The notes under the pieces: model-generated
Database searches by the model: none
The model's input: only the letters and a program-made list of their open reading frames with translations
What the model was told of the DNA's origin: nothing
In this document: piece by piece, positions 2,406-19,565 of the stretch
Position numbering within the stretch: the first letter of the stretch is position 1
How the letters are laid out: every line of letters starts with the position of its first letter
From: Paracoccaceae bacterium
Lineage (GTDB): Bacteria > Pseudomonadota > Alphaproteobacteria > Rhodobacterales > Rhodobacteraceae
Length of the DNA stretch: 37,851 bases
NCBI GenBank assembly: GCA_027013095.1
Contig: JALUYI010000048.1
Location: 1 to 37,851, forward strand
Direction: 5' to 3'
Program-made: the position numbers and the translations under genes

Positions 2406-4109
2406 TCAGGAGCCGTTGGCATTGCTGCCCCGCAGCTTGGCCTTGTCGAGGTCATGCACCAGACGGGTCTCCAGCAACTGTCCACTCCTATAGAGGATGG
2501 GGTAGGCTACGGCCGAAATCTGCGAGTTCAGATCGTTCAGGCTGCGCAGGGTCTCCAGATGGATATCGCTGCTCTCAAAGCTCTGCTCCAGCCCCTTGCG
2601 CAACCGGTTGAGGTGTTTCTTGCGACTCTTGCGTTCCTGCAGCTTCATTTCGGCCTTTTCCTCGACCAAAAGGCGGGCACTTTCGATGTCATCGGATACC
2701 AGAACGTTGAAGGCCAGCGTCATGTTGTGCAGAACGCGCTCATGCAGGGATTGCAGTTCAGCCCAACCGTCATCTGACAGTTTGACCCGTTTTGAGCCCT
2801 TCTCACGAGCCAAAGCCATCAGCCGGTGGGCGATGATATCGCCGGCATTTTCAAGGTTGATCGCATATTCCGTCAATTCGCGGATGCGCCGGCTTTCCCC
2901 CTTGCTGGCCCCCTCGCGCGGGATCGACGCAGCATAACGCCGGATCCCCTCCAGTGCAGCGTTAACCTCATCGTCCATATCGGAAATCCGCTTGATCCCG
3001 TCCGGGTCATATCTGGCGAACAGTTCCATCACCGGGCGCGCCATGATCTCAATGATCTGGCTCATCCGCAAGACCTCGCGCTTGAGACTGGCCAGCGCCA
3101 GAGACGGGGTGTTCTGGACGTTGGGGTCAAGGGCCGACAGGGGCTTGAACCGGTCGCTGACGACCTCGGCGCTGGGGCGATCCGGCACCATCAGGCGCAG
3201 CGGAGCTTCGATAAATCCGATCCCCGGCAGCGACACCAACAGCAGCAGGATGTTAAAGCCGAGGTGAACCGAAACCACCTTTTGCGTGTCCGAGACCACG
3301 TCCAGAACGCTCAAGACCGGGGTCAGGTGGACCAGCAACAGGGCAACAACCGCCCCGATTCCGCGCAACACCAGATTGGCCAGCGCGATCCGTTTGGCTT
3401 CAGGGCCCATCCCGCGCCCCAGCCACAACGGTAGCGTGGCACTGCCAAGGTTCGCCCCCAGTACCATCGAGGCCGCCGCCGGCACCGGCAGAACCCCGAC
3501 CGAGACAAAGGTCACCACCATCAGGATTGCCCCGACGCTGGAATGCATCAAAAACGTCACCGCCGCGCCGACAAGGAACGCGGTGACGAAATCATTCGCC
3601 AGATAGGTCGCGATCACCGGCAAAAAGGCGCTCTCGCGGATCGGGTGGACTGCATCGCCGATCAAGCGCAGCGACAGCAGGATCAGGGCAACGCCAATCA
3701 GGATCCGACCGATCTGCTTGAAGGTCCGACGCTCGGTCTTCAGGAAAAGATAGCCGCCCACCAGCAACAGGATCGGAATCAGCCAAGTCAACTTGAATGT
3801 CAGGATCTGAATGACCATGGCCGAGCCGAAATCGGCGCCAAGCACCAGTGACAGCCCGCCCATGAACGAAATCAGACCCGAAACGGCAAAACCGCTGGCC
3901 AAAAGCGCGGCAGCGGTGGCGCTCTGCAGGATGATAGCCAAAAGGACACCGACAAAGGCCATGCTCAGGCGCTTGTCCTCATGGGCGGTGATCAGGCGAC
4001 GAAAACTGGGGCCCATAGCCCGCTCGATCCCGGTGCCCACCATACGCACGGCATAAAGCAGCAGCATCGTCGCCCCGCCCAATCCGACAAGAAAGCTCAG
4101 AACCGGCAT
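2406..4109 (-). CDS. Na/Pi-cotransporter family protein with PhoU-like C-terminus (NptA/YjbB type)
   Basis: 567-residue membrane protein. The N-terminal half (to about residue 310) has eight or nine hydrophobic segments in two inverted repeats, each with the Na/Pi signature: LQSATAA starting near residue 61 and a matching HSSVGA near 195. The C-terminal third (about 330-565) is a helical PhoU-like domain rich in charged residues. E. coli YjbB, of the same build, is known to export phosphate. Start ATG at 4109 has AAGGGA upstream and lies 1 bp after the deoR-like stop, so the two genes are translationally coupled. Next to aminoethylphosphonate genes, a phosphate-efflux role is plausible (inference). 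An upstream in-frame start at 4151 would lie inside the regulator gene and is rejected. Confidence 0.88.
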   Translation of the reverse strand: MPVLSFLVGLGGATMLLLYAVRMVGTGIERAMGPSFRRLITAHEDKRLSMAFVGVLLAIILQSATAAALLASGFAVSGLISFMGGLSLVLGADFGSAMVIQILTFKLTWLIPILLLVGGYLFLKTERRTFKQIGRILIGVALILLSLRLIGDAVHPIRESAFLPVIATYLANDFVTAFLVGAAVTFLMHSSVGAILMVVTFVSVGVLPVPAAASMVLGANLGSATLPLWLGRGMGPEAKRIALANLVLRGIGAVVALLLVHLTPVLSVLDVVSDTQKVVSVHLGFNILLLLVSLPGIGFIEAPLRLMVPDRPSAEVVSDRFKPLSALDPNVQNTPSLALASLKREVLRMSQIIEIMARPVMELFARYDPDGIKRISDMDDEVNAALEGIRRYAASIPREGASKGESRRIRELTEYAINLENAGDIIAHRLMALAREKGSKRVKLSDDGWAELQSLHERVLHNMTLAFNVLVSDDIESARLLVEEKAEMKLQERKSRKKHLNRLRKGLEQSFESSDIHLETLRSLNDLNSQISAVAYPILYRSGQLLETRLVHDLDKAKLRGSNANGS

Positions 4110-4110
4110 G

Positions 4111-4908
4111 TCAGCGATCCCTTGACAGCTGCGGCAGGACCACCTCGACACCCCAGACGTTCATCGCCTGAGTGGCCACAGGGTCCAGCGGTTGATCGGT
4201 AACGAAAATGTCGATCTCGTCAGGAGCGCTAAGCAGAACCGAGGCCTTGCGCCCCATTTTGGTGCGGTCAGCAACCATGATCCGCTGCCGCGCATGGCTG
4301 ACAAAACAGCGGGCCAGCTGGGCCTCGGAGAAATCCTGCAACAAAAAGCCGCGCTGGGGATCCACCGCATCCGCCCCCAGAATCGCGAAATCGGCGTGAA
4401 AGCGGCAGACAAACTCCTGCACGGCGCTGCCGAAACACCCGGCAAGGTCGGCCGCCACTTCGCCGCCGGCCAGAAAGACCTTGTTGCCGTTGCGCCCGGC
4501 CAGTGTCTCGGCCACCACAAGCGAGTTGGTAATGATCTGAAGCCCCGAGCGGCTGCCCAGCGCCTCGGCGACATAGGTGGTTGTGGAGCTGACATCCATA
4601 AACAGCGCCGCCCCGTCCGGCACGATTCCGGCAACGGCGCGCGCCATCTCGCGCTTTTCACTGCGATTCTGGCCGAGGCGTGTGGTCAGGCCGCCGCGAG
4701 TATCGTCTCCGGCCAGAAAAACGCCACCGTGGACCCGCGTGACCAGACCCTCTTTTCCCAGCTTCTTGACCGTGCGCCGAACCGTCTCTTCGGAAACGTC
4801 CAACGCTGCGGCAAGATGGCTGGTGCGCGCCGAGCCCCCAAGGCGGCGCAGGATGTCCAGCAATTCCAATGCCCGATGCGATTTTATGCCCGATTTTTCT
4901 GGCTTCAT
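4111..4908 (-). CDS. DeoR/GlpR-family transcriptional regulator
   Basis: 265 residues with the usual DeoR build: an N-terminal winged helix-turn-helix (about 8-60; recognition region DVSEETVRRTVKKL followed by VHGG) and a DeoR C-terminal sugar-phosphate-sensing domain (about 75-250) with the family motifs MDVSSTT, TNS, GG and DRTK. Members usually repress and are released by a phosphorylated sugar or polyol. The start at 4908 (MKPEKSG) follows a GGGA; an earlier in-frame start at 4944 is less likely. It is coupled to the Na/Pi transporter and divergent from the phosphonate-ester hydrolase, so it probably controls both. Its effector is unknown. Confidence 0.9.
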   Translation of the reverse strand: MKPEKSGIKSHRALELLDILRRLGGSARTSHLAAALDVSEETVRRTVKKLGKEGLVTRVHGGVFLAGDDTRGGLTTRLGQNRSEKREMARAVAGIVPDGAALFMDVSSTTTYVAEALGSRSGLQIITNSLVVAETLAGRNGNKVFLAGGEVAADLAGCFGSAVQEFVCRFHADFAILGADAVDPQRGFLLQDFSEAQLARCFVSHARQRIMVADRTKMGRKASVLLSAPDEIDIFVTDQPLDPVATQAMNVWGVEVVLPQLSRDR

Positions 4909-4936
4909 AGTCCCGTTCCAGTTATTTGACCTTGAA

Positions 4937-5005
4937 AACCACATATAGGGTTAAGAAGCGATTAAAATCGTTATCTATCCCTCACTTTTATGTGTTTATG
5001 TGGGA
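4937..5005. promoter_or_regulatory. Divergent operator region between deoR-like gene and hydrolase gene
   Basis: The 134-bp spacer is markedly AT-rich and holds repeated sequence. TTTATGTG occurs twice in perfect tandem (4989-4996, 4997-5004), and the complement of TATGTGG occurs as CCACATA at 4939-4945. Between them lies a dyad, CGATT (4959-4963) and AATCG (4966-4970). These are candidate operators for the DeoR-type regulator. No strong promoter boxes are evident. Confidence 0.42.
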
Positions 5006-5042
5006 TAACTATGCATTGCCGCACAGGAAAGCAATAAAATCC

Positions 5043-6575
5043 ATGAAAAATCGCAAGATATTATTCATTGTCGTCGATCAACTGCGGGCCGACTGCATTC
5101 ATGGCGCGCTGGCGCAGCATGTCGATCTACCCAATATTGCCGCCTTTCGCCGCGAGGCGGTCAGTTTTCTGAACCATTATTCGGTGACCAACCCATGCGG
5201 GCCGTCGCGGGCTTCGATCCTGACCGGGCTCTATGCGATGAACCACCGCTCGGTGCGCAACGGAACACCGCTGTCCGCAGCGCATCGTAATCTGGCGCTG
5301 GAGTTGCGTAAATCCGGTTATGACCCGCTGCTGTTCGGCTATACCGATACCAGCCACGATCCACGCACCGGGCATCCGCGCGATCCGCGTCTGCTGAGCT
5401 ATGAAGGCGTTCTGCCCGGATTTCACGAAATCGTCGAGATGTGTCTGGACCAAAGCTACCCCTGGCGCGCAAATCTAGCGGCCAAGGGCTATGATCTGCC
5501 GGAATATGCGCATTTTTACGATCCGGTCTCGCCCGATCCGGCGCGCGCGGCGCGAGCGGACGATCCGGCCTTTTATGCCGCCGGGGACAGTGACACCGCC
5601 TTTCTGACCGACGCGTTTCTTGAACAGATGGCGGTGCGCCGGGATCAGGCGTGGTGCGCCTTGCTGACCTATATCCGCCCGCACCCGCCGCTGGTTGCCC
5701 CGGCGCCCTATAACAAATGTGTCGATCCCGACAGCCTGCCGTTTCCGGTGCGTCATGCCTCGATTGCCGAGGAAGAGGGCCAGCACCCCTTCATGGCCGT
5801 CAACCGCACACGCCCGTCCATGGCCTCGTGCGTGCGCGGCACAGCGGTGGATGAAACCGATGACCGCGACGTTCAGATGTTGCGGGCGATCTATCTGGGA
5901 CTGGCTGCCGAGGTGGATCATCACCTTGGCCGGGTGTTTTCCTTTCTGAAGGAAAGCGGCCAATACAATGACACCCTGATCGTTCTGACCGCCGATCATG
6001 GCGAGATGCTGGGGGACCACCACATGTGGGGCAAGGCGCAGGTCTATGAACCCGCCTACCGTGTTCCCCTGATCATCCGCGACCCTTCAGCGCCCGAGGG
6101 GCATGGCCGGACGGTCAATGCCCTGACTGAATCGATCGACGTCGCTCCGACGATCCTTGAATCCTGCGGACAAAACGCGCCGGGGGCCATGGACGGGCGC
6201 GCCCTTGGCCCCTTTCTGCACGGCGTCACACCCGGTGACTGGAAGACCCACATTATGATGGAGCTCGATTTCGGCCAGCCGGACCAGCCGACCGCGATGC
6301 AACTGGCGGCAAAGGCTCCGCTGGAGGCCTCGAATCTGGCGATCCTGCGCAATGAGCGATTCAAGCTGGTGCATTTCAACGCCGGCCTGCCGCCGCTGTT
6401 GTTCGACCTTAAGGAAGACCCCGAGGAAATGAACAACCTTGCGGGCAAACCCGGGTTTCAAAATATCCTCTTGCAAATGACGCAAACCCTTCTCAGCCAC
6501 CGGATGCGCCACGCGGATCAAAGCCTTGCGCGCATGAAAGTCGGCCCTAACGGAGTCCTGAACGGTCCCGATTGA
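5043..6575 (+). CDS. Phosphonate monoester hydrolase-like sulfatase-family enzyme
   Basis: 510 residues of the alkaline phosphatase/arylsulfatase superfamily, close in length and motif order to the Rhizobium and Burkholderia phosphonate monoester hydrolases (about 514). Visible are the metal-binding Asp12 (VVDQLRAD), the formylglycine site Cys52-Gly-Pro-Ser-Arg56 in the context NPCGPSRASILTGLYAMNHR, an RPHPP loop, TADHGEMLGDHH for the second metal-ligand set, and the C-terminal PPLLFDLKEDPEEMNNL block. The nucleophile is formed by oxidation of Cys52. There is no signal peptide, so hydrolysis should be cytoplasmic. Start 5043 matches the family N-terminus and has AGGAAAG upstream; an in-frame start at 4926 would add an unlikely basic extension. 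Aryl- or choline-sulfatase activity cannot be excluded, as these enzymes are promiscuous. Confidence 0.82.
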   Translation: MKNRKILFIVVDQLRADCIHGALAQHVDLPNIAAFRREAVSFLNHYSVTNPCGPSRASILTGLYAMNHRSVRNGTPLSAAHRNLALELRKSGYDPLLFGYTDTSHDPRTGHPRDPRLLSYEGVLPGFHEIVEMCLDQSYPWRANLAAKGYDLPEYAHFYDPVSPDPARAARADDPAFYAAGDSDTAFLTDAFLEQMAVRRDQAWCALLTYIRPHPPLVAPAPYNKCVDPDSLPFPVRHASIAEEEGQHPFMAVNRTRPSMASCVRGTAVDETDDRDVQMLRAIYLGLAAEVDHHLGRVFSFLKESGQYNDTLIVLTADHGEMLGDHHMWGKAQVYEPAYRVPLIIRDPSAPEGHGRTVNALTESIDVAPTILESCGQNAPGAMDGRALGPFLHGVTPGDWKTHIMMELDFGQPDQPTAMQLAAKAPLEASNLAILRNERFKLVHFNAGLPPLLFDLKEDPEEMNNLAGKPGFQNILLQMTQTLLSHRMRHADQSLARMKVGPNGVLNGPD

Positions 6576-6624
6576 GTATTTTTGCAAAAAAGAGGGCAAG
6601 GGGCGCGTCCCCGATCCCGCTCGT

Positions 6625-7635
6625 CTATGCCAAAACCTTTTCGGCCGCCAACTCCTCCCAGCGGTGGCAGGAAACATTGTGTCCCTTGCCGATATGGGCC
6701 AGCTCGGGCTCTTCCTTGCGGCAGCGATCCTGGGCAAAGGGACAACGGGTCTGGAACTTGCATCCGGGCGGCGGGTTGGTTGGCGAGGGGATCTCGCCCA
6801 GCAGTTTCTGACCGCCGCGGCGATCCTCTGGGTCGAGCGAGGGGATGGCCGACAGGAGCGCTTGCGTATAGGGGTGGCGCGGCGCCGAGAACAGCTCGCG
6901 CGTGGGCGCAGTCTCCATCAGGCGTCCCAGATACATCACCGCAACATTGTCGCATATATGGGCGACCACCGACAGGTCGTGACTGATGAACAGAAAGGTC
7001 AGGCCCATTTCCTGCTGGATCGATTTGAGCAAGTTCAGGACATCGGCCTGAATCGACACATCCAGCGCCGCAACGCTTTCGTCGGCAACGACAAACCGCG
7101 GGCGGGAGACCAGCGCGCGAGCGATGGAAATACGTTGGCGCTGGCCGCCCGAAAAGGCATGCGGAAAGCGGCGCAGGTGTTCGAGATTCAGACGGCATTT
7201 GGCGGCGATCTCGCGCACGCGCTCATCGGTTTCCTCGCGCGAGTTGGTAAGCCCCATGACCTCTAGCGGTTCGGCGATAATGTCGCGCACCGTCATCCGC
7301 GGGCTGAGAGCGGCGTAAGGGTCCTGAAAGATCAACTGCGCCCGGCTACGGTATTCCTTGAGCTCCCGCCCCTCCAGTTTCGGCAGATCGTAGCGCACCT
7401 CGCCATCGTCATAGGTCACGTCGCCTCGGGTGATCGGCGCCGCCCTCAGCAAGGCCCGGCCAAAGGTCGTCTTGCCCGAGCCGCTTTCGCCGACCAGACC
7501 GAAAAAGCTGCCGGGGGCGATGTCGATACTGACGTTTTCGACCGCCCGAACCACGGGTTTCGGGCCAATCAGAGTCCCACGCAGCGGATAGTGGACAGAC
7601 AGCCCCTTGGTGGAAATCAGTGGTGTCTCGGTCAT
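6625..7635 (-). CDS. Dipeptide/oligopeptide-type ABC transporter ATP-binding protein (DppF-like)
   Basis: 336-residue nucleotide-binding subunit. Walker A is GESGSGKT, Q-loop FQDPYAAL, signature FSGGQRQR, Walker B RFVVADES and the switch histidine lies in FISHD. The C-terminal oligopeptide_ABC extension follows (HPYTQALLSAIP, then a CxxxxRCPFA cysteine motif). ADES replaces the usual ADEP. Start ATG at 7635 overlaps the stop of the preceding ATPase by ATGA, so the pair is coupled. It is the last gene of the importer operon and converges on the hydrolase gene, whose stop is 49 bp away. An in-frame start at 7722 lies inside the neighbour and is rejected. Confidence 0.93.
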   Translation of the reverse strand: MTETPLISTKGLSVHYPLRGTLIGPKPVVRAVENVSIDIAPGSFFGLVGESGSGKTTFGRALLRAAPITRGDVTYDDGEVRYDLPKLEGRELKEYRSRAQLIFQDPYAALSPRMTVRDIIAEPLEVMGLTNSREETDERVREIAAKCRLNLEHLRRFPHAFSGGQRQRISIARALVSRPRFVVADESVAALDVSIQADVLNLLKSIQQEMGLTFLFISHDLSVVAHICDNVAVMYLGRLMETAPTRELFSAPRHPYTQALLSAIPSLDPEDRRGGQKLLGEIPSPTNPPPGCKFQTRCPFAQDRCRKEEPELAHIGKGHNVSCHRWEELAAEKVLA

Positions 7636-8633
7636 GCGGAAACACTCTCCTTGGTGAACAGATGACAGGCGACGCGGTGCGTTGCGTCGATCTGCGTAAA
7701 GCGGGGCAATTCGCGCTGGCAACGCCCCTCTATCGCCACGCTGCAGCGTGTGTTGAAGACGCAGCCCGTCGGGCGTTCCAGTGGCGACGGGATGTCGCCG
7801 GGAACCGGGATCAGGGGGGCGTCGAGATCGTCGAGATGGGGCAGCGCAGCCAGCAAGCCCTTGGTGTAGGGGTGAGCCGGGGAACGGATGACGTCGCGCA
7901 CCGGGCCCTGCTCGACAATCCGGCCGAGATACATCACGGCAACCTTGTCCGCGGTCTGCGCGATCACGCCGAGGTCATGGGTGATAAAAATGATCCCCAT
8001 GCCGAATTCGGCCACCAGATCTTTCATCAGGTCGATCACCTGCGCCTGAATGGTGACATCAAGGGCGGTCGTGGGTTCATCGGCGATCAGCAGTTTGGGT
8101 TTCGTTGACAGGGCCATGGCGATCATCGCCCTCTGGCGCATCCCGCCGGACAGCTCGAACGCGTATTGGGAAAAGCGTTTGGAGGCATCCGATATCCCCA
8201 CCCGGTCCAGCATTTCAATCGAGACTTCACGGGCCTTTTTCTTGCTCATGTCGGTGTGAATCTGCAGCTGCTCAACCATCTGGTTGCCGATGCTGATTGC
8301 CGGGGCAAAGCTGGCCATCGGCTCCTGAAAGATCATCGAGATGGCGCCTCCTCGCACCACCTGCATGTCGCGAGCACTTTTCAGCCCCATGACATCTATC
8401 GGCCCGCCTTTCAGATGCAGCGTGATCTTTGTCCTTTCGCCGTAGATTGCATTGCCGGCGTTCAGTTTCATCAGCGATTTCGCGGTTACCGATTTCCCCG
8501 AGCCGCTTTCGCCCACCAACCCCATGACTTCGCCCGCCTCAAGTGAGAACGAGACGTCATCAACCGCCGTGATTCGCCCCTCGTCGGTATCAAATTGCAG
8601 AGTCAGGTTTTCAACGTCGATCAGGCGGCTCAT
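7632..8633 (-). CDS. Dipeptide/oligopeptide-type ABC transporter ATP-binding protein (DppD-like)
   Basis: 333-residue ATPase subunit. Walker A GESGSGKS, Q-loop IFQEPMASF, signature ELSGGMRQR, Walker B KLLIADEPT and FITHD are all intact, followed by the oligopeptide-specific tail (HPYTKGLLAALP, PLIPVPGDIPSP, CVFNTRC). The start MSRLIDVENL at 8633 overlaps the upstream permease stop in an ATGA. A much longer frame reaching 9080 exists, but its extra 149 residues are the permease read out of frame. It pairs with the second ATPase to energise the importer. Confidence 0.94.
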   Translation of the reverse strand: MSRLIDVENLTLQFDTDEGRITAVDDVSFSLEAGEVMGLVGESGSGKSVTAKSLMKLNAGNAIYGERTKITLHLKGGPIDVMGLKSARDMQVVRGGAISMIFQEPMASFAPAISIGNQMVEQLQIHTDMSKKKAREVSIEMLDRVGISDASKRFSQYAFELSGGMRQRAMIAMALSTKPKLLIADEPTTALDVTIQAQVIDLMKDLVAEFGMGIIFITHDLGVIAQTADKVAVMYLGRIVEQGPVRDVIRSPAHPYTKGLLAALPHLDDLDAPLIPVPGDIPSPLERPTGCVFNTRCSVAIEGRCQRELPRFTQIDATHRVACHLFTKESVSA

Positions 8634-9790
8634 GTCTTGCTGTCCGAATAGGGGTCCGCCGCGTCCCGCAGCCCGTCTCCGACAAAGACAAAGGCCAGAA
8701 CCAGCGTTATGAAAAAGATGACGGGGATGAAATACCACTGATAGTTCAGCAGCACATCGGCCTTGGTCACGTTTTGCAACATCACCCCAAGGCTGTTGAC
8801 CGGATCCTTCAGCCCCAGCCCGATGAACGACAGGGCCGTTTCGGACAGCACCATATAGGGAAAGGAAATGACCAGATCGACGATGATATAGCTGGTAAAG
8901 CTGGGCAACAGATGCTTGCGGATAATGTGACTTGCGCTGGCGCCGCACAGCTGCGCGGCCAGCACATATTCCTGATTGCGTTCGCTTAAAAGGTGTGTGC
9001 GCACCCGCCGCGCCAGTGTCGGCCAGCCGATAAATCCGAGAATGATCGAGATGAAGAAGAACCGCATCTCGGAGCTCCAAGTGTCGGGGATAAAGGCCGC
9101 CAGCGCCATAAACAGCGGAATTGCCGGCACCGTTCGGATGGCATCGGTGATCATCTGCAGGACCGAGTCGATCCAGCCGCCGTAATAGCCGGACACCCCT
9201 CCTATGATCAGGGCCATGACAAATGCAATCAAGACGCCAATCGTGCCCACGGCCATTGATGTGTTGATGGCGTGAAAGGTGCGCGAAAAGATGTCCTTGC
9301 CGGCAAAATCGGTCCCAAACAGGTGGATTTTCCCCTTGTCCACTCCAAACAAGTGACGGTCGAAATGCAGCCCGAACAGGGTATAGGGGTCGCCATGCGG
9401 CAGAAAGGTCATGAACCGACGTTTCTCGCGATTGATCGTTGTGACCCAGCGGAAATTGGTCTTGATCGAACGCTGGCGCTCTGAGGTGTAAATGAACGGA
9501 ACAATGGAAAAGCCGTTCTCGTCCCAGAATTTCGGGATTTGCGGGGCGCCGTTTTCATAGCCCTTGTCCCGTCCGGCGATAGTCGGGTTATAGGGGGTCA
9601 GGAACGGTGCGAACAGGCCCGAAAGGATCAGGGCCAGCAACACGATTGCACCGGCCATGGCGGATCTGTTCCTTTTGAAACGGGTCCAGATCAGTTGACC
9701 CTGCGAGGCGGTGAAATAGGCTTCTTTCAGCTTTTGATCGACATTCGCGTCGGTCTTATCGGTGGTCTTATCGGTGGACATGTCGCTCAT
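8630..9790 (-). CDS. Dipeptide/oligopeptide-type ABC transporter permease (DppC/YejE-like)
   Basis: 386-residue inner-membrane permease, longer than the usual 300 because of a loop of about 100 residues between the first hydrophobic segment (near 45-67) and the core, as in YejE/OppC-type subunits. The binding-protein-dependent transport domain covers about 170-375; the EAA-loop region reads EYVLAAQLCGASASHIIRKHLLP, which is split here as EYVLAAQLCGA and SASHIIRKHLLP. It contacts the ATPases through this loop. The start at 9790 overlaps the upstream permease stop by ATGA. A repeated TDKTTDKTD stretch near the N-terminus is low-complexity. Confidence 0.92.
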   Translation of the reverse strand: MSDMSTDKTTDKTDANVDQKLKEAYFTASQGQLIWTRFKRNRSAMAGAIVLLALILSGLFAPFLTPYNPTIAGRDKGYENGAPQIPKFWDENGFSIVPFIYTSERQRSIKTNFRWVTTINREKRRFMTFLPHGDPYTLFGLHFDRHLFGVDKGKIHLFGTDFAGKDIFSRTFHAINTSMAVGTIGVLIAFVMALIIGGVSGYYGGWIDSVLQMITDAIRTVPAIPLFMALAAFIPDTWSSEMRFFFISIILGFIGWPTLARRVRTHLLSERNQEYVLAAQLCGASASHIIRKHLLPSFTSYIIVDLVISFPYMVLSETALSFIGLGLKDPVNSLGVMLQNVTKADVLLNYQWYFIPVIFFITLVLAFVFVGDGLRDAADPYSDSKT

Positions 9791-10791
9791 CCCATGATGC
9801 TCCGTCTTACGCGCGGATCGGTCAGCGCCAACAGAATATCGGTGAAAAAGTTGAGCGCAACGATACTGGCGGTCAGCAAGAAGATGATCGCCCCGGCAAG
9901 CTGCTGGTCGTTGGAACGTGCCAGTGCCTCGATCAGCAGGCTGCCCGCCTCGGTCAAGGTCAGGATCAACGCCACCACCGGCAATTCATTGAAAATGCGG
10001 TTCAGGTCAAAGCCGAGGCTGTTGATGATCGGCCCCAGCGCGTGGCGCGCCGGGTATCGCCACAGCAGGCGCCGCCCCGAAACACCGCGGGCCCGTGCGG
10101 CGGTGACGTAAAGTTTGCCGATTTCATCGGACATCAGCGCCCGCACCGTCTGGATGGCAAATGCGGTGGCCGACCAGCCAAGAATAAAGATCGGCAGCCA
10201 GGCATGCGACAGGAAATCGACCCCCCGAGCCCACGACCAGGCGGCATCTCGATATTCTGGTGAAAACAGCCCCGTCAGGGAGTTGCCGAACATGACGGTG
10301 GAAAACAGCATCACCATCAGCGCCAGCAGGAAATTCGGCAGCGCGAGGCCCAGATAGCTGACCAGCCGCAGCGTGTTGTTCAGCGTCTTGTTGTTGGAGG
10401 TCGCCGATATGATCCCCACGGGCAAGGCCACGGCATAAGCCGCCAGCAATGACGTCAAACATATCCCCAGAGAGATCCAGAATTTTTCGCCCAGAAGACG
10501 GCTGATATTCAGACGCAGAATACAGCTTTCGCCAAAGTCTCCCTCAAACGCATGGGTGATCCATTTGACCCAGCGGGTCAAAAACGGCTTGTCCAGCCCC
10601 AGAAGCACCCGCTCGGCCTGAATGTCGGCAACAGTGATCTGACTGCCCTGGGTGTTCTTGAAGGCGACGTAGCGCTCGGCGCAATCACCGGGAACCAGCT
10701 CCATCAACGAGAACACAATAAAGGAAACGATCACCAGTGTGACCATGGCCATCACGGCCCTGACCGCCACAAAGCGCATGAATTGCAACAT
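9787..10791 (-). CDS. Dipeptide/oligopeptide-type ABC transporter permease (DppB-like)
   Basis: 334-residue inner-membrane permease with six hydrophobic segments. The N-terminal segment (VTLVIVSFIVFSLMELVPGD) is the classic DppB/OppB opening. The EAA-type loop is LYVTAARARGVSGRRLLWRYPA. ATG at 10791 (MLQFMRF) is preferred, with GGGGTGG about 7 bp upstream; a GTG at 10812 is in frame but has no evident ribosome site. It is the first of four ATGA-coupled genes and is separated from the binding-protein gene by a stem-loop. Confidence 0.91.
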   Translation of the reverse strand: MLQFMRFVAVRAVMAMVTLVIVSFIVFSLMELVPGDCAERYVAFKNTQGSQITVADIQAERVLLGLDKPFLTRWVKWITHAFEGDFGESCILRLNISRLLGEKFWISLGICLTSLLAAYAVALPVGIISATSNNKTLNNTLRLVSYLGLALPNFLLALMVMLFSTVMFGNSLTGLFSPEYRDAAWSWARGVDFLSHAWLPIFILGWSATAFAIQTVRALMSDEIGKLYVTAARARGVSGRRLLWRYPARHALGPIINSLGFDLNRIFNELPVVALILTLTEAGSLLIEALARSNDQQLAGAIIFLLTASIVALNFFTDILLALTDPRVRRSIMG

Positions 10792-10882
10792 CTCAGTCCA
10801 CCCCGTAATCACCTGAGCCGCCAGTTTTTCAGCGGGCTTTTCTTGGTTATTGCCGGTACATATCCGGTTTGTTCATCGGCAC

Positions 10883-10912
10883 GTTTGCGGGCGACCTGCG
10901 CCGCCCGCAAAC
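10883..10912 (-). promoter_or_regulatory. Intercistronic stem-loop between binding protein and permease genes
   Basis: Perfect 11-bp arms GTTTGCGGGCG (10883-10893) and CGCCCGCAAAC (10902-10912) with an 8-nt loop lie 25 bp after the binding-protein stop. No U-tract follows. Such hairpins commonly cap the binding-protein mRNA and lower readthrough into permease genes, giving excess binding protein; that role is inferred. Confidence 0.6.
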
Positions 10913-10937
10913 AGTTTGGAATTGGCGTCTGCCGACC

Positions 10938-12980
10938 TTATTTGGCCAACCACCACTGAACCGGCCGATACGGGTAGGCTCGATAGTACTCGTAAGACGC
11001 GGTCCGGAACTTGTGGAAGTTCTTCAGCGCATTACGATGGTAGATCGGAGCCGGGGCCTGAACCGTGCCAATGAACATCAGGTGGCCGGTCATCAGCTCA
11101 ACCATCTTTTCACCCAGCTTGGCGGCCTGATCCGAACCCGGAGCCGCCGATTGGAAGGCATCCACCGTATCCGAAAGATCATAGACCCATTTCGGCGGTT
11201 TCACACCCTTGGCGCCCTTGCTGTCGATGTATTCAGCCCACAGCACGCCGGTGCGGTGGCCGAAATAGTTCTCGAACGGAGCTTTCCACAGTTCCGCCGT
11301 GCCCTGAACGATGGCAATCGGCTGGCCCTTGCGCCATGTGCCGATATCCAGCTTGTTGGCCGACTGGTTGGAACGATACTCGTCCGGCGTGACCTCTTTG
11401 ACAGTGGTCTTGATGCCAACGTCAGACCAGTACTGGCCGACCAGTTCGACAACCTGACTGGAAACGCCCTGAGTCGCAAACTGGATGTTCAGCACCAGCT
11501 TGTCGCCATTGGGCATTTCGCGGAAGCCGTCGCCATCGACGTCTTTCATGCCCATCTCGTCCAGCAGCTTCTTGGCGCCGGCCGGATCGTAATTGGCGGC
11601 GAATTTCAGCCATTTCGGGTCGACAAAGCTGGGGGTCGGGGAAAAGCCGATATATTGCTTGGCAACACCCTGACCGAAAAAGGCCGTCTGGTTCATTTCT
11701 TCGCGATTGATTGCAATCGACATCGCCTTGCGGAACCGCAGATCCCCGAACACTTTGCGTTTTTCAAGGTTCTGGTCGGTCACGTTGAACGAGAAGGTTG
11801 GCATCGCGATGGTCGGAGCCAGATCAACGGTAAAGTCACCCTTTTTCTGTTTCTCCAGCAACAGGGGAGCCGAGGGCAGGTCCAACGACTGTGCCTTGTA
11901 GTCCACCTCGCCATTGACCAGTTTCAGCAGGCGAACCTGGCTTTCGTTGGCGAATGTCTCGTCCATCTCGTTGATGTAGGGCAGCTGGTGGCCAGCGGTG
12001 TCTACAGCAAAGAAATAGGGGTTGGCGACCAGATGACGGCCTTCGGTCGTCTGCTTGACCATGATATGCGATTCAAGCGTCGGCACCGTATCCTTGGGCA
12101 GCTTGGCCACCTTGTCGGGGCTATTCAGCATCGGCGTGCCGGTGTCTGTCCAGTCCGAGTTGCCGTAATAGGCCTTGATCAGCGCATAACCGTTCTTGAA
12201 GCCATAGCTCTGCGCCAGCTTGTCGGCATCCGGGTTGATCGCCGGGTGGAACTTGCCAAGGAAATGCTTGGGCTGGAAGGGCTGGGCATAGATCGTGGCA
12301 AATGTTGCCAAGAGGCCCGGCTTGGGCGCCGGCAGCTTGAAGACGACGGTCTGCGGATCCGGCGTTTCGATGGTCATCTTCTTGCCGGCGACAAGGGCGT
12401 AATCCTTGGGCTTGGAGAAGACATTCTTGTCGTACATCAGGTTGTCGTAATAGAACTTGATGTCGGCCGAGGTGAACGGCGCGCCGTCAGACCACTTGTG
12501 ACCCTTGCGCAGATGCATGGTCAGCTGGGTAAAGTCCTTGTTCCACTGCCAGTCCTTGGCAACATAGGGTACGACGGTTTGCAGATCGTCCGAATAGCGT
12601 ACCAGATTGACGTGGCGCACCGACAAAAAATCCGACGTGCCCGCTTCGGATGCGTTCGAGAGCGCATGGAAGGTGCCGCCGTACTGGCCGATCGAATCAT
12701 AAGGCGCAATAACCAGAGGCTCGGACGGCAGACGGTCAGCCAAGGCTGGCAGCGCCGGGTTGCCGCGGATGCGGCCGTTCAACTCGGCAATCGCCGGGTT
12801 CGCAGTTACCTTCAGGGTGCAATTGGCGAGCTTTTGGAACTCGCCCAGTTCATATTGCTCAGGGAAGGCGCCTGCCGCAACCCCTTGGGGGTTGGCGACG
12901 GTGACCGCCGGGCATCCGGCCGCAAAGGCCGTCCCGGTCAGCGCCACCAGCGCAATACCTGATAATAATATGCGTTTCAT
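10938..12980 (-). CDS. Periplasmic solute-binding protein of family 5 (SBP_bac_5)
   Basis: 680 residues with a clear signal peptide (ILLSGIALVALTGTAFA, cleavage near residue 20). The SBP family 5 body starts near residue 110; motifs include WSDGAPFTSADIKFYYD, TMHLRKGHKW, FGDLRFRKAMSIAINR and YDPAGAKKLLDEMG. At 680 residues it is larger than typical DppA/OppA (about 510-540), nearer the YejA/large peptide-binding class, which suggests a bulky ligand. AGAGAGG lies upstream of the ATG. Family 5 proteins bind peptides, nickel, opines, oligosaccharides and other conjugates, so ligand identity cannot be read from the sequence. The neighbours point to a phosphonate conjugate (inference). Confidence 0.92.
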   Translation of the reverse strand: MKRILLSGIALVALTGTAFAAGCPAVTVANPQGVAAGAFPEQYELGEFQKLANCTLKVTANPAIAELNGRIRGNPALPALADRLPSEPLVIAPYDSIGQYGGTFHALSNASEAGTSDFLSVRHVNLVRYSDDLQTVVPYVAKDWQWNKDFTQLTMHLRKGHKWSDGAPFTSADIKFYYDNLMYDKNVFSKPKDYALVAGKKMTIETPDPQTVVFKLPAPKPGLLATFATIYAQPFQPKHFLGKFHPAINPDADKLAQSYGFKNGYALIKAYYGNSDWTDTGTPMLNSPDKVAKLPKDTVPTLESHIMVKQTTEGRHLVANPYFFAVDTAGHQLPYINEMDETFANESQVRLLKLVNGEVDYKAQSLDLPSAPLLLEKQKKGDFTVDLAPTIAMPTFSFNVTDQNLEKRKVFGDLRFRKAMSIAINREEMNQTAFFGQGVAKQYIGFSPTPSFVDPKWLKFAANYDPAGAKKLLDEMGMKDVDGDGFREMPNGDKLVLNIQFATQGVSSQVVELVGQYWSDVGIKTTVKEVTPDEYRSNQSANKLDIGTWRKGQPIAIVQGTAELWKAPFENYFGHRTGVLWAEYIDSKGAKGVKPPKWVYDLSDTVDAFQSAAPGSDQAAKLGEKMVELMTGHLMFIGTVQAPAPIYHRNALKNFHKFRTASYEYYRAYPYRPVQWWLAK

Positions 12981-13173
12981 ATTGGATCCTCTCTTCTGTT
13001 GGTCCGTCGTCCGATATCCGACTCATGCAGAGCCGGCGGATGGGCTGCCTGTCGCACGATTTCTTGACAGTCGTATGACAGCACCTCCCCACGGCGTATT
13101 TTCGAGTTCGCGATACTTGTCGATAAAACAAGCAGACTCCCCCGAACGCATCATCATCCGTTAAATGTGATTC

Positions 13174-13276
13174 TGTCAAATTTTCCGGATCGATTGGCCA
13201 AATTAAACCGCTTGCAATTTTTTCCAACTGCAGGGCGCGGCGAATCCTGTGGGAAAGTGGCCCTGTTTGTGGGAAA
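13174..13276 (-). promoter_or_regulatory. Upstream region of the binding-protein gene: -35 box and two phased direct repeats
   Basis: The gene-free stretch 12981-13326 holds, on the minus strand, a perfect TTGACA (13174-13179) but no good -10 at normal spacing. TGTGGGAAA is repeated at 13248-13256 and 13268-13276, exactly 20 bp apart, about 70-100 bp upstream of that box. Two equal sites two helical turns apart suit a dimeric activator. This would let the importer be transcribed apart from phnW-phnX. Nothing else was seen in the spacer. Confidence 0.35.
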
Positions 13277-13326
13277 ATTCTTGGAATTTCGTCACCTGAA
13301 AGATATTTGCAGCCAAGGCGGGCCAC

Positions 13327-14133
13327 TTAAGAAACCGCGATCACAACGACACCGCCCAGAACCAGAACCGCGGCCCCGAGGCGCCGCCGCCACGGGCGTT
13401 CGTGCAGGAACACCACGCCGATCAGGGCAGCAAACAGGACCGAGCTTTCGCGCAGGCTGGACACCAGCCCCAGCGGTGCCAGCGTTGCGGCAAAGATCAC
13501 CAGACCATAGGCCGAAGCCGAGATCAGCCCGCCACCAAGCCCCACGAGCAGGACCGGCCGGGGCAGGCGATGAATGCGTCGCCCGGTGCGGCCAAAGACA
13601 AAAAGGACAACAAAGATTTCAAACAGAAACAACCACGCAATATAGCCGAGAGGCGCCCCCGAGGCTCTGGCCCCCAGCCCGTCCACCAGCGAATAGGCGC
13701 CAATGGTTGCGCCGGTCCCCAAGGCCGAAACCAAAGCCGGGCGCCCGCCCCGCAGCGGGTTTCCAGCCAGCGCCATGACCCCAAGCGACACCACACCAAC
13801 CCCCACGGTTGCGGGGATCGACAGGCGCTCATGCGCCGCCAACGCCGCCCCGAGGGCAACCAGAACCGGCGCTATACCGCGGGCAATCGGATAAATCAGC
13901 GAAAGATCTCCCAACCGGTATGAGCGGTTCAAAAGGGCGTAATAGGCGAAATGGATCACCGTCGAAGCCCCGATAAACAGCCAGCTAACCGGCGCGGGCC
14001 ACGGCACGAACCCCACCAGCAAAAGCCCCATCACGACATTGCCCAGCGAGATCAGACCCAGCAACGCCACCCGGTCAGCGGACAACTTGACCAACGCATT
14101 CCAGAGTGCATGAAGAAACGCCGCTAGCAACAC
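13327..14133 (-). CDS. EamA/DMT-family permease
   Basis: 268 residues with about ten hydrophobic segments in two EamA repeats (roughly 1-125 and 133-268). The opening LLAAFLHALWNALVK is typical of this family, and the second repeat ends in LHERPWRRRLGAAVLVLGGV. The conservative start is GTG at 14133. The family usually has about eight more residues, and an in-frame CTG at 14157 would supply them (SGPVLAIV) and overlap the phnX stop as CTGA. It follows phnX directly and may move a pathway substrate, product or nitrogen compound; substrate unknown. Confidence 0.86.
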   Translation of the reverse strand: MLLAAFLHALWNALVKLSADRVALLGLISLGNVVMGLLLVGFVPWPAPVSWLFIGASTVIHFAYYALLNRSYRLGDLSLIYPIARGIAPVLVALGAALAAHERLSIPATVGVGVVSLGVMALAGNPLRGGRPALVSALGTGATIGAYSLVDGLGARASGAPLGYIAWLFLFEIFVVLFVFGRTGRRIHRLPRPVLLVGLGGGLISASAYGLVIFAATLAPLGLVSSLRESSVLFAALIGVVFLHERPWRRRLGAAVLVLGGVVVIAVS

Positions 14134-14153
14134 GATGGCAAGGACGGGACCGC

Positions 14154-15002
14154 TCAGGGTTTTTCGCCCCGCGCAAGCCGCGCGTTGATGTCCGCGATCA
14201 CCGCCGGAATTTCAACCAGACTATTGATGACATAATGCGCCCCCGCCTTGACCAGAATTTCACGGGTATGCGCCATGCGGCGGGCGATCTCATCATCGCT
14301 GAGACGCGCAGCCTCTTCCAGCGAGTTGACATTCATGTAGTTGGAATATCGCACCAGCCCCACCCCCCAGCAGCCGGCATTCTGAGCTTCGCCGATCCCC
14401 GAGACGGTATCGTCGCATTTCACCACTGATTTTACATCGCTGATATTCATCAGGTCGAGATTGCGAAACACCATATGCGGATTGGGCCGGGCGCCGTTCA
14501 GAACCTCATCTCCGGCCACCGTGGCATCGGGAGTAAAGCCTTGACGAATACTGTCTTCCAGCAGGATATCAACCATCGAGCGAACAAACCCCGTGCTGGT
14601 TCCGATCTTGATCCCCTGCGCCTGTAACGCGTTCATCGTGTCGGCAATCCCCGGCAGCAGATCGGTATAGTTGCGCAGGCAGTCCAACTGCAGCGGAACG
14701 AAATCGGCAAACATTGCATCGACGTCGTCCTGCGTTGGCCGAGCACCCTTGACCGCCTCCCAGCGGGCGGCAATCTCGGGATCTTCGGTCAGCATCTTGA
14801 TGTGCAGGTCTTTGCGCAAACCCATGGGGCCGCGGGCCTCCTCCATCGATATCTCAACCCCCTGATTCTTGAACACCTCGACAAATACCGAAGCCGGGGC
14901 GATCACATAGGCATCCGCCAAGGTTCCGCTCCAGTCCAGAACCAGCGCCTTGACGCCGCCGCGATAGGTCCGCTCGTAAGTGTAGTCACCGTAAAAATTC
15001 AT
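14154..15002 (-). CDS. phnX: Phosphonoacetaldehyde hydrolase (phosphonatase) PhnX
   Basis: HAD-superfamily enzyme that splits the C-P bond of phosphonoacetaldehyde to acetaldehyde and phosphate. The nucleophile is Asp23 in LDWSGT (DWAGT in many homologues). The cap-domain lysine that forms the Schiff base is Lys64 in MGLRKDLH, the feature that separates PhnX from other HAD phosphatases. TSTGF, ARPNPHM and KCDDTVSGIGEA are the later HAD motifs. 282 residues is close to the family norm of about 270. It lies 46 bp after phnW with GGAAAG before the ATG, consistent with a phnW-phnX operon. Cytoplasmic, Mg-dependent by family knowledge. Confidence 0.95.
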   Translation of the reverse strand: MNFYGDYTYERTYRGGVKALVLDWSGTLADAYVIAPASVFVEVFKNQGVEISMEEARGPMGLRKDLHIKMLTEDPEIAARWEAVKGARPTQDDVDAMFADFVPLQLDCLRNYTDLLPGIADTMNALQAQGIKIGTSTGFVRSMVDILLEDSIRQGFTPDATVAGDEVLNGARPNPHMVFRNLDLMNISDVKSVVKCDDTVSGIGEAQNAGCWGVGLVRYSNYMNVNSLEEAARLSDDEIARRMAHTREILVKAGAHYVINSLVEIPAVIADINARLARGEKP

Positions 15003-15048
15003 CTTTCCTGTCCTTTGGTTGGTGTCCCGGTCTGGGTCTGGTCTGGTT

Positions 15049-16233
15049 TCATTGCGTCAGTTTTTCCCGCTCTGCAAGCGCCGCCGCCGGAGGACGCGCC
15101 GACTGCACGCCCATTTCGCTCAGGCAGTCCTTGGCAGCGCTGACTACGGCGCGCATGACCTCGGTGTCCAGCTGCCCGATACAGCCAAGGCGAAAGCTGT
15201 CCACGACCGTCAATTTTCCGGGGTAGATGATAAAGCCCTTGTCCTTCATCCGGCGGTAAAACTCGGAAAAGGAAAAGGCCGGATCCTCGGGGCAGAAAAA
15301 GGTCACGATGATCGGCGACAGCCAGCGCTGGCCCAGCAGCGTTTCAAAGCCGAGGGCGCGCATTCCGGCCACCAGCTGGTCGCGGTTTCGGGCGTATCTG
15401 GCCCCGCGCCCCACGACCCCTCCCTCGGCGGCATGAAGGCGCAGCGCCTCGAGAAAAGCGGCAACCACATGTGTCGGCGGGGTAAACCGCCACTGCCCGG
15501 TCTTGTTCATGGTTGCCCACTGGGCGTGGATGTCCAGCGATAGGGAATGGGAATTCCCCTCGGCCCGAACCAGCGCCGTTTTGCGGGCAATGACAAAGCC
15601 AAAGCCGGGCACGCCCTCGATACATTTGTTGGCTGACGAGACGAAGGCCTCATAGGTGATTTCACCGGGGTCAAGCGGCAGCGCGCCAAAGGCGCTCATG
15701 CTGTCGATCAACAGACGCCGCCCGGCGGCCTCGACCGCGCGGGCAATTTCGGCAATCGGATTGAGGATGCCGGAACTGGTCTCACAATGGACGACGACGA
15801 CGTCGGTGATCGCCGGATCGGCGGCCAGCGCCGCGGCCACCTCGGGGCCGCGAGGCGGCAGATAATCGCCCTTGTCGATGACCAGATGATCGCGCCCCAG
15901 ATAGGCCAGCGTCTGCACCATCCGCTGCCCGTAGGCGCCATTGGCCAGCACCAGAACCTTACCGTCGCGCGGAATAAACGAGCCCAGCATCGCCTCGACC
16001 GCAAATGTTCCACTGCCCTGTATCGGTACGCAGTCAAAATCTGCATTCCCTCCGATCAGCGCCAACAGCCCTCGGCGCAGGTCTGCAGTCATCGCGCGAA
16101 AATCGTCGTCCCATGAGCCCCAGTCCCGCAACATCGCCTGCTTGACCGACCACGCGGTGCTCAGAGGCCCGGGTGTCAGCAGGTAGGGTTCACCCAGACG
16201 CGGGGCGGGAATGGGAGGGGAATCAGTGGACAT
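15049..16233 (-). CDS. phnW: 2-aminoethylphosphonate--pyruvate transaminase PhnW
   Basis: PLP enzyme that moves the amino group of 2-aminoethylphosphonate to pyruvate, giving phosphonoacetaldehyde and alanine. The 394-residue protein begins its core with YLLTPGPLSTAWSVKQAML and has GSGTFAVEAML for phosphate binding, HCETSSGILNP, DSMSAFGALP with the PLP-ring aspartate, and Lys203 in SSANKCIEGVPGF as the Schiff-base lysine. TPPTHVV and KLTVVDSFRLGCIGQL near the C-terminus are also PhnW-like. An AAAAGG lies before the ATG. First gene of the phnW-phnX-eamA run, divergent from the LysR regulator. Confidence 0.95.
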   Translation of the reverse strand: MSTDSPPIPAPRLGEPYLLTPGPLSTAWSVKQAMLRDWGSWDDDFRAMTADLRRGLLALIGGNADFDCVPIQGSGTFAVEAMLGSFIPRDGKVLVLANGAYGQRMVQTLAYLGRDHLVIDKGDYLPPRGPEVAAALAADPAITDVVVVHCETSSGILNPIAEIARAVEAAGRRLLIDSMSAFGALPLDPGEITYEAFVSSANKCIEGVPGFGFVIARKTALVRAEGNSHSLSLDIHAQWATMNKTGQWRFTPPTHVVAAFLEALRLHAAEGGVVGRGARYARNRDQLVAGMRALGFETLLGQRWLSPIIVTFFCPEDPAFSFSEFYRRMKDKGFIIYPGKLTVVDSFRLGCIGQLDTEVMRAVVSAAKDCLSEMGVQSARPPAAALAEREKLTQ

Positions 16234-16340
16234 GACTTTTGCCTTTTACCTTGTTCATGTCGATGCCTTGACGCAAATCTTTCCATCTGTAAAATTAATA
16301 TTTTATATCATTACATAAATATTATTGATATTATGCCGCC
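16234..16340. promoter_or_regulatory. phnW/lysR divergent control region
   Basis: A 107-bp spacer whose right half (16291-16334) is almost pure A and T in a GC-rich locus. Inverted arms AATATTT (16297-16303) and AAATATT (16317-16323) are centred on 16310. The placement and dyad suit a LysR-type operator (T-N11-A class) acting on both genes. The exact promoter boxes are not clear. Confidence 0.45.
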
Positions 16341-17225
16341 ATGCGATACAGCCAGCTCCGCGCCTTTCACGCCGTTGCCCGTCTTGGCGGTTTTTCCCGC
16401 GCCGCCGCGGCAGTGGGCCTGACCCAGCCAGCGCTGTCCGATCAGGTTCGCAAGCTGGAACAACAATACGACGTCCTGCTGTTTGACCGAAAGCGCAAGC
16501 AGATCCGCCTGACCCCGACCGGCCAACGCCTGTATGATATCCTTGTGCCGATGTTCGAGCAGGAGGCCCGCGCGCATGAATTTCTCAGCGAATCCCGCGT
16601 CCTGATCGAAGGCAAGCTGCGCATTATCGCCGACAGCGCCTATCATGTGACTGAGGTCATTCGCCGCTTTCACAGCCGCTATCGGGCAGTTGAGATCACT
16701 CTGACATCGGGAAATTCTCAGGATGTCATCGCCGCGCTCGGCGCCTACCGCGCCGATATCGGTGTGCTGGGAAACCATACACCGCACAGCGATCTGGAGG
16801 CGGTGTCGTTGGGAAAATCGCGCATCATCGCCTTTGCGCACAAACGCCTGAAAGAGGCGCCCCCCGGCAGCGCCGCCCTTGCCGATTTGATCGGCCTGCC
16901 GCTGATCCTGCGCGAGCCGGGCTCAAAAACCCGCCAGAAGCTGGAAGAGGCGGCCGCCGCCGCAAACCTTGTGTTAAAGCCCACGATCGAGGCCGAAGGG
17001 CGCGAAGCGGTACGCGAACTGGTCGCTGCCCGGGCTGGAATCGGCTTTGTCTCCGAGGCGGAATACGGGCATGACACCCGCCTGCGCCGCATCCCGCTGT
17101 CGGGAACCGCGCTGTTTATGGATGAAACCGTGGTCTGCATCAGGCGGCGGCGCGATTTGCGGGCGATCCGGGCCTTCATGGACATAGCCGCGCAATTGTC
17201 GGGCGCGGCGGGCACGACCTCCTGA
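16341..17225 (+). CDS. LysR-family transcriptional regulator, probably of aminoethylphosphonate genes
   Basis: 294 residues. The N-terminal winged helix (1-60) reads SQLRAFHAVARLGGFSRAAAAVGLTQPALSDQVRKLE when taken in parts (SQLRAFHAVARLGGF, then SRAAAAVGLTQPALS, then DQVRKLE). A linker helix leads to the LysR substrate-binding domain (about 88-290). LysR proteins beside phnW are known activators of aminoethylphosphonate use, and divergence from phnW supports that. ATG at 16341 is the only sensible start. The effector is probably aminoethylphosphonate or a pathway intermediate (inference). Confidence 0.92.
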   Translation: MRYSQLRAFHAVARLGGFSRAAAAVGLTQPALSDQVRKLEQQYDVLLFDRKRKQIRLTPTGQRLYDILVPMFEQEARAHEFLSESRVLIEGKLRIIADSAYHVTEVIRRFHSRYRAVEITLTSGNSQDVIAALGAYRADIGVLGNHTPHSDLEAVSLGKSRIIAFAHKRLKEAPPGSAALADLIGLPLILREPGSKTRQKLEEAAAAANLVLKPTIEAEGREAVRELVAARAGIGFVSEAEYGHDTRLRRIPLSGTALFMDETVVCIRRRRDLRAIRAFMDIAAQLSGAAGTTS

Positions 17226-17290
17226 CGGTTTTTCCGTGGCCAATGGCCAAACCCTCTGGCATAACGCCGAAAACAACGGAGACAACTGCC

Positions 17291-19496: not shown

Positions 19497-19565
19497 CCGG
19501 AATTTTCGCACCCGGGCGCATCTCGGGCGCGGGTCCTGTCACTTGATTTTCAACGCGAGGTACCA

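Follow-up and report, generated by a model that had tools for sequence, protein, structure and literature searches.

The window analysed here is an entire contig (37,851 nucleotides) of a Paracoccaceae bacterium whose genome comprises 2,914,818 bases in 59 contigs. Between positions 2406 and 17225 it encodes a phosphonate monoester hydrolase (PMH), an ABC importer with a family 5 substrate-binding protein (SBP), the 2-aminoethylphosphonate (AEP) degradation enzymes PhnW and PhnX, and a candidate phosphate exporter (Table 1). The genomic linkage of PMH, SBP and PhnW is solid, and the idea that they belong together is strongly supported; from it we infer that the importer and the hydrolase handle an intact ester. 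The locus is probably a scavenging system for esters of AEP.

Natural AEP is largely bound in lipids and glycans. The SBP and the OppBCDF proteins would import an intact, small, hydroxyl-rich AEP conjugate, for which the best guess is glyceryl-AEP and the next best a sugar ester of AEP. Glyceryl-AEP is the deacylated headgroup of phosphonolipids and an isostere of glycerophosphoethanolamine. The PMH, a formylglycine-type enzyme of the cytoplasm, would cleave the P-O-C ester to yield AEP and an alcohol, PhnW would convert AEP to phosphonoacetaldehyde, and PhnX would cut the C-P bond to give acetaldehyde and phosphate. PhnY and PhnA would take the place of PhnX in other genomes. The chemistry of both the PhnW/PhnX and the PhnW/PhnY/PhnA routes is established elsewhere. 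Surplus phosphate would leave through the Na/Pi-PhoU protein; the LysR-type regulator would answer to the AEP branch; the alcohol branch may be what the GlpR-type regulator senses.

The original prediction, made from the letters of the window alone, had the hydrolase gene converging on a complete dipeptide-type importer, with phnW-phnX-eamA ahead of the importer operon. Open reading frames (ORFs) and Pfam and NCBIfam matches bear out this layout. The stop codons of the PMH gene (6575) and of the last importer gene (6625) face each other across 49 bases, and all five genes of an Opp/Dpp (SBP5) importer are present: the SBP, two permeases and two ATPases with oligo_HPY domains. PhnW and PhnX, the pair that defines the PhnWX pathway, are adjacent and both exceed curated cut-offs.

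The prediction further depended on the linkage recurring in other genomes, and it does. The PMH, SBP and PhnW of the window were searched for in a set of 394 family genomes, close to one for each genus; matches were accepted at identities of at least 41, 45 and 64%, respectively. Three PhnW matches at 41-51% were excluded; contig-end fragments and a truncated SBP (genome G269) were kept. The PMH clade was found in 68 genomes, the SBP clade in 61 and PhnW in 71. All three genes are present in 42 genomes, two in 19 and only one in 36, and 297 genomes have none. Every pair is associated (Fisher p <= 4e-28), and remains so when stratified by the third gene (Cochran-Mantel-Haenszel, CMH, odds ratios of 22 for PMH-SBP, p = 9e-14; 7 for PMH-PhnW, p = 5e-6; and 14.5 for SBP-PhnW, p = 3e-10). 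These tests take genomes as independent, and near one-per-genus sampling lessens the effect of shared ancestry but does not remove it. The genes are also close together. Of the 49 genomes that have both PMH and SBP, 37 carry them no more than 25 kb apart on the same contig; the corresponding figures are 24 of 48 for PMH-PhnW and 24 of 48 for SBP-PhnW. In one genome (G184, contig C1) each of the three genes was found twice with identical scores near both contig ends, probably an assembly overlap. Beyond the family, the SBP clade occurs in 29 of 195 genomes sampled from the order and in 5 of 398 sampled from the phylum. Three of these five, including the genome of the window, belong to the family; the matches outside it (L214, L215) have the importer and no PMH or PhnW in the stretch.

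Gene order was compared around hydrolase matches, in stretches no longer than 20 kb, and in 80 named loci, onto which the window genes and recurrent neighbours were mapped by tblastn. Because many loci are cut off after about 9-10 kb or by the end of a contig, the neighbour counts are lower bounds. Merging of 155 PMH sequences at 98% identity left 145, and exclusion of four loci (L113, L116, L117 and L118) left 141. None of the four shows phn genes in its stretch; L113 shows no peptide-type importer, L116 has another type of ABC transporter, and L117 and L118 have genes for an SBP, ATPases and permeases directly after PMH. Among the 141 distinct loci, 77 have the importer (at least two of its five genes), 35 have phn genes and 27 have both (Fisher p = 0.003). 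Neither the SBP clade nor PhnW occurs in the 13 control loci (L100-L112), whose hydrolases are more distant (31-37% identity).

Seven arrangements were seen among 26 loci with PMH, importer and phn genes. Five loci (L085, L086, L093, L095 and L099) carry SBP-OppB-C-D-F-PhnW-PhnX-PMH on one strand, and the same string is found on plasmid pSC52_2 of Rhodobacteraceae bacterium SC52, where PhnW and PhnX are annotated as such and confirmed by models. In six loci PMH-SBP-Opp is divergent from phnW-phnA. Models confirm PhnA in L054 and PhnY in L082; the phnW-phnA loci indicate that both branches of C-P cleavage are used. PbfA, the (R)-1-hydroxy-2-aminoethylphosphonate (HAEP) ammonia-lyase, is confirmed in L066, and its cluster spans 8 of 36 phn loci. 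Carriers among the named loci are Rhodobacteraceae, other Alphaproteobacteria and a few Gammaproteobacteria; an Oceanospirillaceae metagenome-assembled genome (MAG; L152) has PMH and importer, and a Granulosicoccus MAG (L194) has PhnA-aldehyde dehydrogenase-SBP-Opp-PMH on one strand. In a quick tree of 144 PMHs of at least 380 residues, in which the four excluded loci were scored as having neither trait, the phn label changes at least 23 times and the importer label 23 times, so the linkage has been made or lost many times. In five further loci (L055, L059, L060, L061 and L200) genes for a glycerate 2-kinase-like protein and a pyridoxal phosphate-dependent decarboxylase come after PMH; none shows an Opp importer, and four have an ABC transporter of the spermidine/putrescine type.

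PMHs characterised so far are active on phosphonate monoesters and phosphodiesters. The best NCBIfam model for the window protein is HdlasePehA (487 bits). It misses the equivalog cut-off of 900 bits, as does the Ruegeria pomeroyi enzyme deposited as a PMH (443 bits). Its best match in the PDB is 4upk (562 bits); 2vqr scores 385 bits. The window PMH shares family, length and active-site set with RlPMH (2VQR), BcPMH (2W8S) and 4UPK; the set comprises D12, Q13, C52, R56, N73, Y100, H214, D318, H319 and K331 in window numbering. As predicted, the formylglycine motif is present (C52-G-P-S-R56), and with it the metal ligands of the family. C52, P54 and R56 are kept in 142 of 144 aligned rows (two gaps) and D318 and H319 in all 144. 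Of two candidate starts, a TTG at 4926 and an ATG at 5043, the latter is preferred, which puts the Asp of the DQ motif, which we take to be a metal ligand throughout the PMH family, at residue 12. This leaves no space for a signal peptide, so the enzyme should be cytoplasmic, again as predicted.

One residue differs from RlPMH. The column that, by alignment, presumably corresponds to Thr107 of RlPMH holds Asp in 141 of 144 rows, including 4UPK and Asp102 of the window protein, and Thr only in L117, L118 and L092. A nucleophile-flanking Thr is called a signature residue of PMHs in the available part of one study (PMC5488252), and with Asp102 the window protein lacks that signature. We also considered whether Glu407 of the window PMH might match Glu386 of choline sulfatase, which is described in a partly available source as serving ammonium recognition (PMC5870055), and rejected the match as the alignment positions do not correspond.

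The genomic settings of the solved enzymes vary. The 4UPK sequence is a megaplasmid protein of R. pomeroyi DSS-3 (WP_011242167) and falls within the clade of the window PMH. RlPMH is a pRL9 protein of R. johnstonii 3841; immediately after its gene come those for an ABC importer, with an SBP, a pair of ATPases and a pair of permeases, and there are no phn genes in the 21.5 kb around it. In R. johnstonii (L117, 10001-17213) and likewise in Pseudoroseomonas cervicalis (L118, 7995-14984), the PMH has its own ABC importer on its 3' side and no phn genes in the stretch. The pairing of PMH and importer therefore extends beyond AEP clusters, and these pairs suggest that other diesters are imported.

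Inspection of the SBP sequence points to a Sec-type leader. Its structure model, built from 33 sequences (mean pLDDT 90.4), most resembles the pectin/galacturonate-binding protein SPH1118 (7veu, TM-score 0.79 by query length) in a Foldseek search of the PDB. Next come 5ipw, which is named OppA with no ligand stated, MelB with melibiose, raffinose or galactinol, and then chitooligosaccharide binders, at identities of 16-27% within the first 21 matches. A sequence search concurs, with 7ver as the nearest solved protein. SPH1118 and MelB (21-26% identity) bind galacturonate and galactosides. With the exception of 5ipw, most peptide binders rank below the sugar binders in both fold and sequence. 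None of the peptide-importer equivalogs among the NCBIfam matches listed for the window importer reaches its cut-off. The description of the importer as peptide-type thus holds for the transporter family but not for the kin of its binding protein, which are mostly sugar binders. This kinship favours a ligand with a hydroxyl-rich part, and makes a glyceryl or sugar ester of AEP likelier than a phosphonopeptide.

In the genome of the window PhnJ has no match and PhnS2 none above cut-off. One Phosphonate-bd protein exceeds its Pfam cut-off, and the PhnD models stay below theirs. This PhnD-like binding protein lies on another contig (C17; L228, 7751-11321) and is followed by genes for a histidine kinase and a response regulator of the sigma-54 type; it is probably a sensor rather than an importer. 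The importer of the window is the best AEP-linked transporter seen in the genome, in searches that did not include AepX and AepP.

Several observations weigh against a dedicated AEP-ester system. The SBP occurs without the PMH clade in 12 of 61 genomes and the PMH without the SBP in 19 of 68. Five loci (L203, L206, L209, L212 and L213) have a full-length SBP with no PMH, PhnW, PhnX or PhnA in the stretch, and the importer may be used without PMH in some carriers. The gene for 4UPK has neither phn genes nor an Opp-type importer in the 29.5 kb around it. The 141 loci are not a random sample, as 80 of the unmerged loci were collected in a scan whose seed was an alignment of 16 PMHs from phn-linked loci; the test in 394 genomes is free of this bias. 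An earlier and cruder count, since replaced, gave 34 of 127 PMH loci without either importer type, phn genes or a Na/Pi transporter in the stretch. An independent-pairs comparison of the phn and importer labels on the PMH tree found them changing the same way in 5.0 and the other way in 1.8 pairs (means over 17 pairs, median p = 0.45). In phn loci IMPase is about as frequent as elsewhere (4 of 35 vs 11 of 106, p = 1), and so is the ethanolamine module described below (3 of 35 vs 12 of 106, p = 0.76). Finally, no convincing formylglycine-generating enzyme was found in the genome: PF03781 gave two matches above its Pfam cut-off, both weak and one with an internal stop.

The alternative that survives best is that two neighbouring functions share one nutrient programme: the importer would carry free AEP, perhaps with glycerophosphodiesters, to PhnW/PhnX, and the PMH would be a phosphodiesterase for diesters like glycerophosphoethanolamine, no AEP ester being cut. 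Six of the 12 genomes with the SBP but without the PMH clade have PhnW, and in five of the six, those of the five loci above, the SBP is full-length; characterised PMHs also act on phosphodiesters according to the available part of one report (PMC5649143). However, the association of PMH with PhnW holds given the SBP (the CMH p of 5e-6 above), the PMH gene directly follows phnX on one strand in some loci, and free AEP needs no hydrolase. At first, one locus (L211, genome G269) seemed to show the importer serving phnW without a PMH: phnW, phnA and an aldehyde dehydrogenase gene lie next to a LysR gene and the importer. Here (L211, 8546-10623) the match to LysR covers residues 1-267 and runs straight into the SBP match, which starts only at residue 251, and in relatives with the same arrangement PMH lies between LysR and SBP. 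L211 therefore looks like a decayed locus from which the PMH and part of the SBP were deleted, and we dropped it as an example since its SBP is truncated. It was the only locus with importer and phn genes among 20 importer loci without PMH, and its truncation led us to lower slightly our estimate for import of free AEP and to raise slightly that for AEP esters. A Pfam scan of 20 flanking ORFs from 17 of these 20 loci, some of the ORFs probably wrong-strand frames, found no common substitute hydrolase. We consider the free-AEP explanation unlikely.

The same explanation draws on genes for phosphate diesters. In Ruegeria conchae (L114) genes for a glutamine synthetase (GS)-like protein, an amidohydrolase and aldehyde and alcohol dehydrogenases lie beside IMPase, DeoR, the importer and PMH, with no phn genes in the stretch; the features of L114 and L115 were taken from annotations. 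This set resembles the ethanolamine gamma-glutamylation module of Phaeobacter MED193 (RpiR, amidohydrolase, GS-like protein, aldehyde/alcohol dehydrogenases), with which we equate it from the genes and their order given in the available part of PMC10132767, not by sequence. It adjoins PMH, IMPase, DeoR and Na/Pi genes in some relatives and is absent from the window. At least two genes of the module are found in 15 of 141 PMH loci; IMPase is likewise found in 15, and 12 of these also have Na/Pi (p = 1e-7), a pattern that indicates phosphate diesters. The avoidance of phn loci that a clean split between phospho and phospho­no versions would predict for IMPase and the module was not borne out. 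Loci with the module may nonetheless be a glycerophosphoethanolamine version of the same device, of which glyceryl-AEP would be the phosphonate counterpart, which suggests glycero-phospho- and glycero-phosphono-ethanolamine as a shared substrate class. A wider, tentative proposal is that importer and formylglycine phosphodiesterase form a headgroup-scavenging device of marine Alphaproteobacteria for both compounds, with swapped catabolic cassettes: PhnW/PhnX or PhnW/PhnY/PhnA would serve the phosphonate, and the gamma-glutamyl ethanolamine module with a phosphatase the phosphate. We hold this more doubtful than the AEP-ester role itself.

Within the AEP-ester explanation, the conjugate could instead be a sugar ester from AEP-decorated glycans or exopolysaccharides. 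The galacturonate, galactoside (melibiose, raffinose, galactinol) and chitooligosaccharide ligands of the nearest solved relatives of the SBP speak for it, and marine high-molecular-weight polysaccharides carry alkylphosphonate esters in a study that, in its available part, also mentions PMH (PMC5649143). That case, however, concerns methyl- and hydroxyethylphosphonate with C-P lyase. Among the representatives of recurrent clusters that were scanned (not every cluster was), none was identified as a sugar kinase or glycosidase, and the GlpR-type regulator and the ethanolamine module indicate glycerol and headgroups. A sugar ester seems to us rather improbable as the specific conjugate.

The original prediction also offered a phosphonopeptide, so that the SBP would bind a peptide containing AEP or phosphonoalanine. 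The Opp/Dpp-like transporter family is what one would expect of such an importer, but PMHs cleave esters, not amides, the recurrent neighbours that were scanned include no peptidase, and the kin of the SBP are mostly sugar binders, 5ipw apart; this weakened option was rejected as the leading idea and is very improbable. Equally improbable is that the hydrolase is a sulfatase linked to phn genes by chance, which its formylglycine sulfatase fold (PF00884) and an annotated sulfate exporter 1.7 kb upstream of the SBP gene in SC52, with two other genes in between, would allow, but which is disfavoured by PehA/PMH as the best model, by the nearest solved enzyme (4UPK) being named a PMH, by Na/Pi transporters in 28 of 141 loci and by the strong association with PhnW.

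Table 1. Genes of the proposed AEP-ester locus and its immediate flank in the window
Feature	Position	Strand	Basis
Na/Pi-cotransporter family protein with PhoU domain	2406..4151	-	PF02690 E 1.7e-36, PF01895 E 9e-12
DeoR/GlpR-type regulator	4111..4908	-	PF00455 E 2e-40, PF08220; divergent from PMH gene
PehA-like phosphonate monoester hydrolase/phosphodiesterase (PMH), 510 aa	5043..6575	+	NF045661 E 5e-146
OppF/DppF-type ABC ATPase	6625..7635	-	PF00005, PF08352; putative internal ATG start, ORF 6625-7722
OppD/DppD-type ABC ATPase	7632..8633	-	PF00005, PF08352; putative ATG start, ORF 7632-9080
OppC-type permease	8630..9790	-	PF00528, PF12911
OppB-type permease	9787..10812	-	PF00528, PF19300
SBP family 5 binding protein, 680 aa	10938..12980	-	PF00496 E 5e-57
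EamA-family transporter	13327..14133	-	PF00892 E 7e-12
PhnX, phosphonoacetaldehyde hydrolase	14154..15002	-	TIGR01422 292.7 bits, cut-off 220
PhnW, 2-aminoethylphosphonate--pyruvate transaminase	15049..16233	-	TIGR02326 475.5 bits, cut-off 400.8
LysR-type regulator, AEP-catabolism subfamily	16341..17225	+	TIGR03339 phn_lysR E 2e-92, 309 bits, cut-off 341
FAD-dependent oxidoreductase (DAO family)	17243..18454	+	PF01266 E 1e-53; directly 3' of LysR gene

The Na/Pi protein scores 105 bits against NF037997 (Na_Pi_symport, cut-off 50). Its Na_Pi_cotrans and PhoU domains are those of phosphate exporters, which makes it a candidate exporter, with outward transport presumed. The start of the DeoR/GlpR-type gene was set at codon 13 (ATG) of ORF 4111-4944. 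The LysR gene is divergent from phnW, and TIGR03339 is its best model even though the score is below cut-off. For the DAO-family oxidoreductase no NCBIfam equivalog exceeds its cut-off; a role on N-methyl-AEP is possible. PF01266 oxidoreductases of AEP clusters are described as PbfB/C/D in the available part of PMC10590968. In two loci (L153 and L156) a DAO-family oxidoreductase with 38-40% identity to that of the window lies 5' of the PMH gene on the same strand. A scan for promoters and terminators placed a single promoter-like site (13179-13150, minus strand) in the gap 5' of the SBP gene; with 8 such sites against a shuffle mean of 5.2, it carries no weight. Further downstream (18601-23093), and outside the system discussed here, are genes for a cytochrome c, a YkuD L,D-transpeptidase with a scaffold domain and an Rrf2 regulator.

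PMHs serve widely as models of enzyme promiscuity. A conserved tie to AEP catabolism and a dedicated importer would give them a testable natural substrate class, and a route for bound AEP that is free of C-P lyase would extend models of the marine phosphorus redox cycle. If the headgroup device exists, it would supply both a natural role for PMHs and a path from phosphonolipid to phosphate without C-P lyase. That Roseobacter-related marine bacteria repeatedly keep the importer, PMH and AEP-degradation enzymes together suggests that phosphonate conjugates, lipid headgroups for example, are taken up whole and used as food. The nearest prior idea is that APase-like enzymes free phosphonates from polysaccharide esters; it comes from the available part of a study that found PMH in 7 of 8 Sulfitobacter isolates (PMC5649143). 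Apart from this suggestion, no natural PMH pathway is given in the literature covered, which includes the available parts of background papers on PMHs and sulfatases (PMC5488252, PMC5870055, PMC10667639, PMC5066984, PMC6189696). Nor did we find a description of PMH, Opp-type importer and PhnW in combination in the available parts of the open-licence literature, preprints excluded.

The locus shares with the known PhnWX and PhnWYA clusters PhnW together with PhnX or PhnY/PhnA, a LysR regulator and, in some loci, PbfA. A search by terms of the available parts of four papers on AEP clusters (PMC12366243, PMC10590968, PMC8154272, PMC9381506) found no monoester hydrolase, sulfatase or peptide/dipeptide transporter. 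The AEP transporters described in the papers covered take up AEP itself and, in agreement with the original prediction, are of other types than the one found here (PMC10574752 and PMC8316502, in their available parts). PhnCDE, PhnSTUV, AepXVW, AepP and AepSTU have the same role, bringing the phosphonate to PhnW, but belong to other transporter families than the SBP5/OppBCDF importer of the window, which would bring in the ester.

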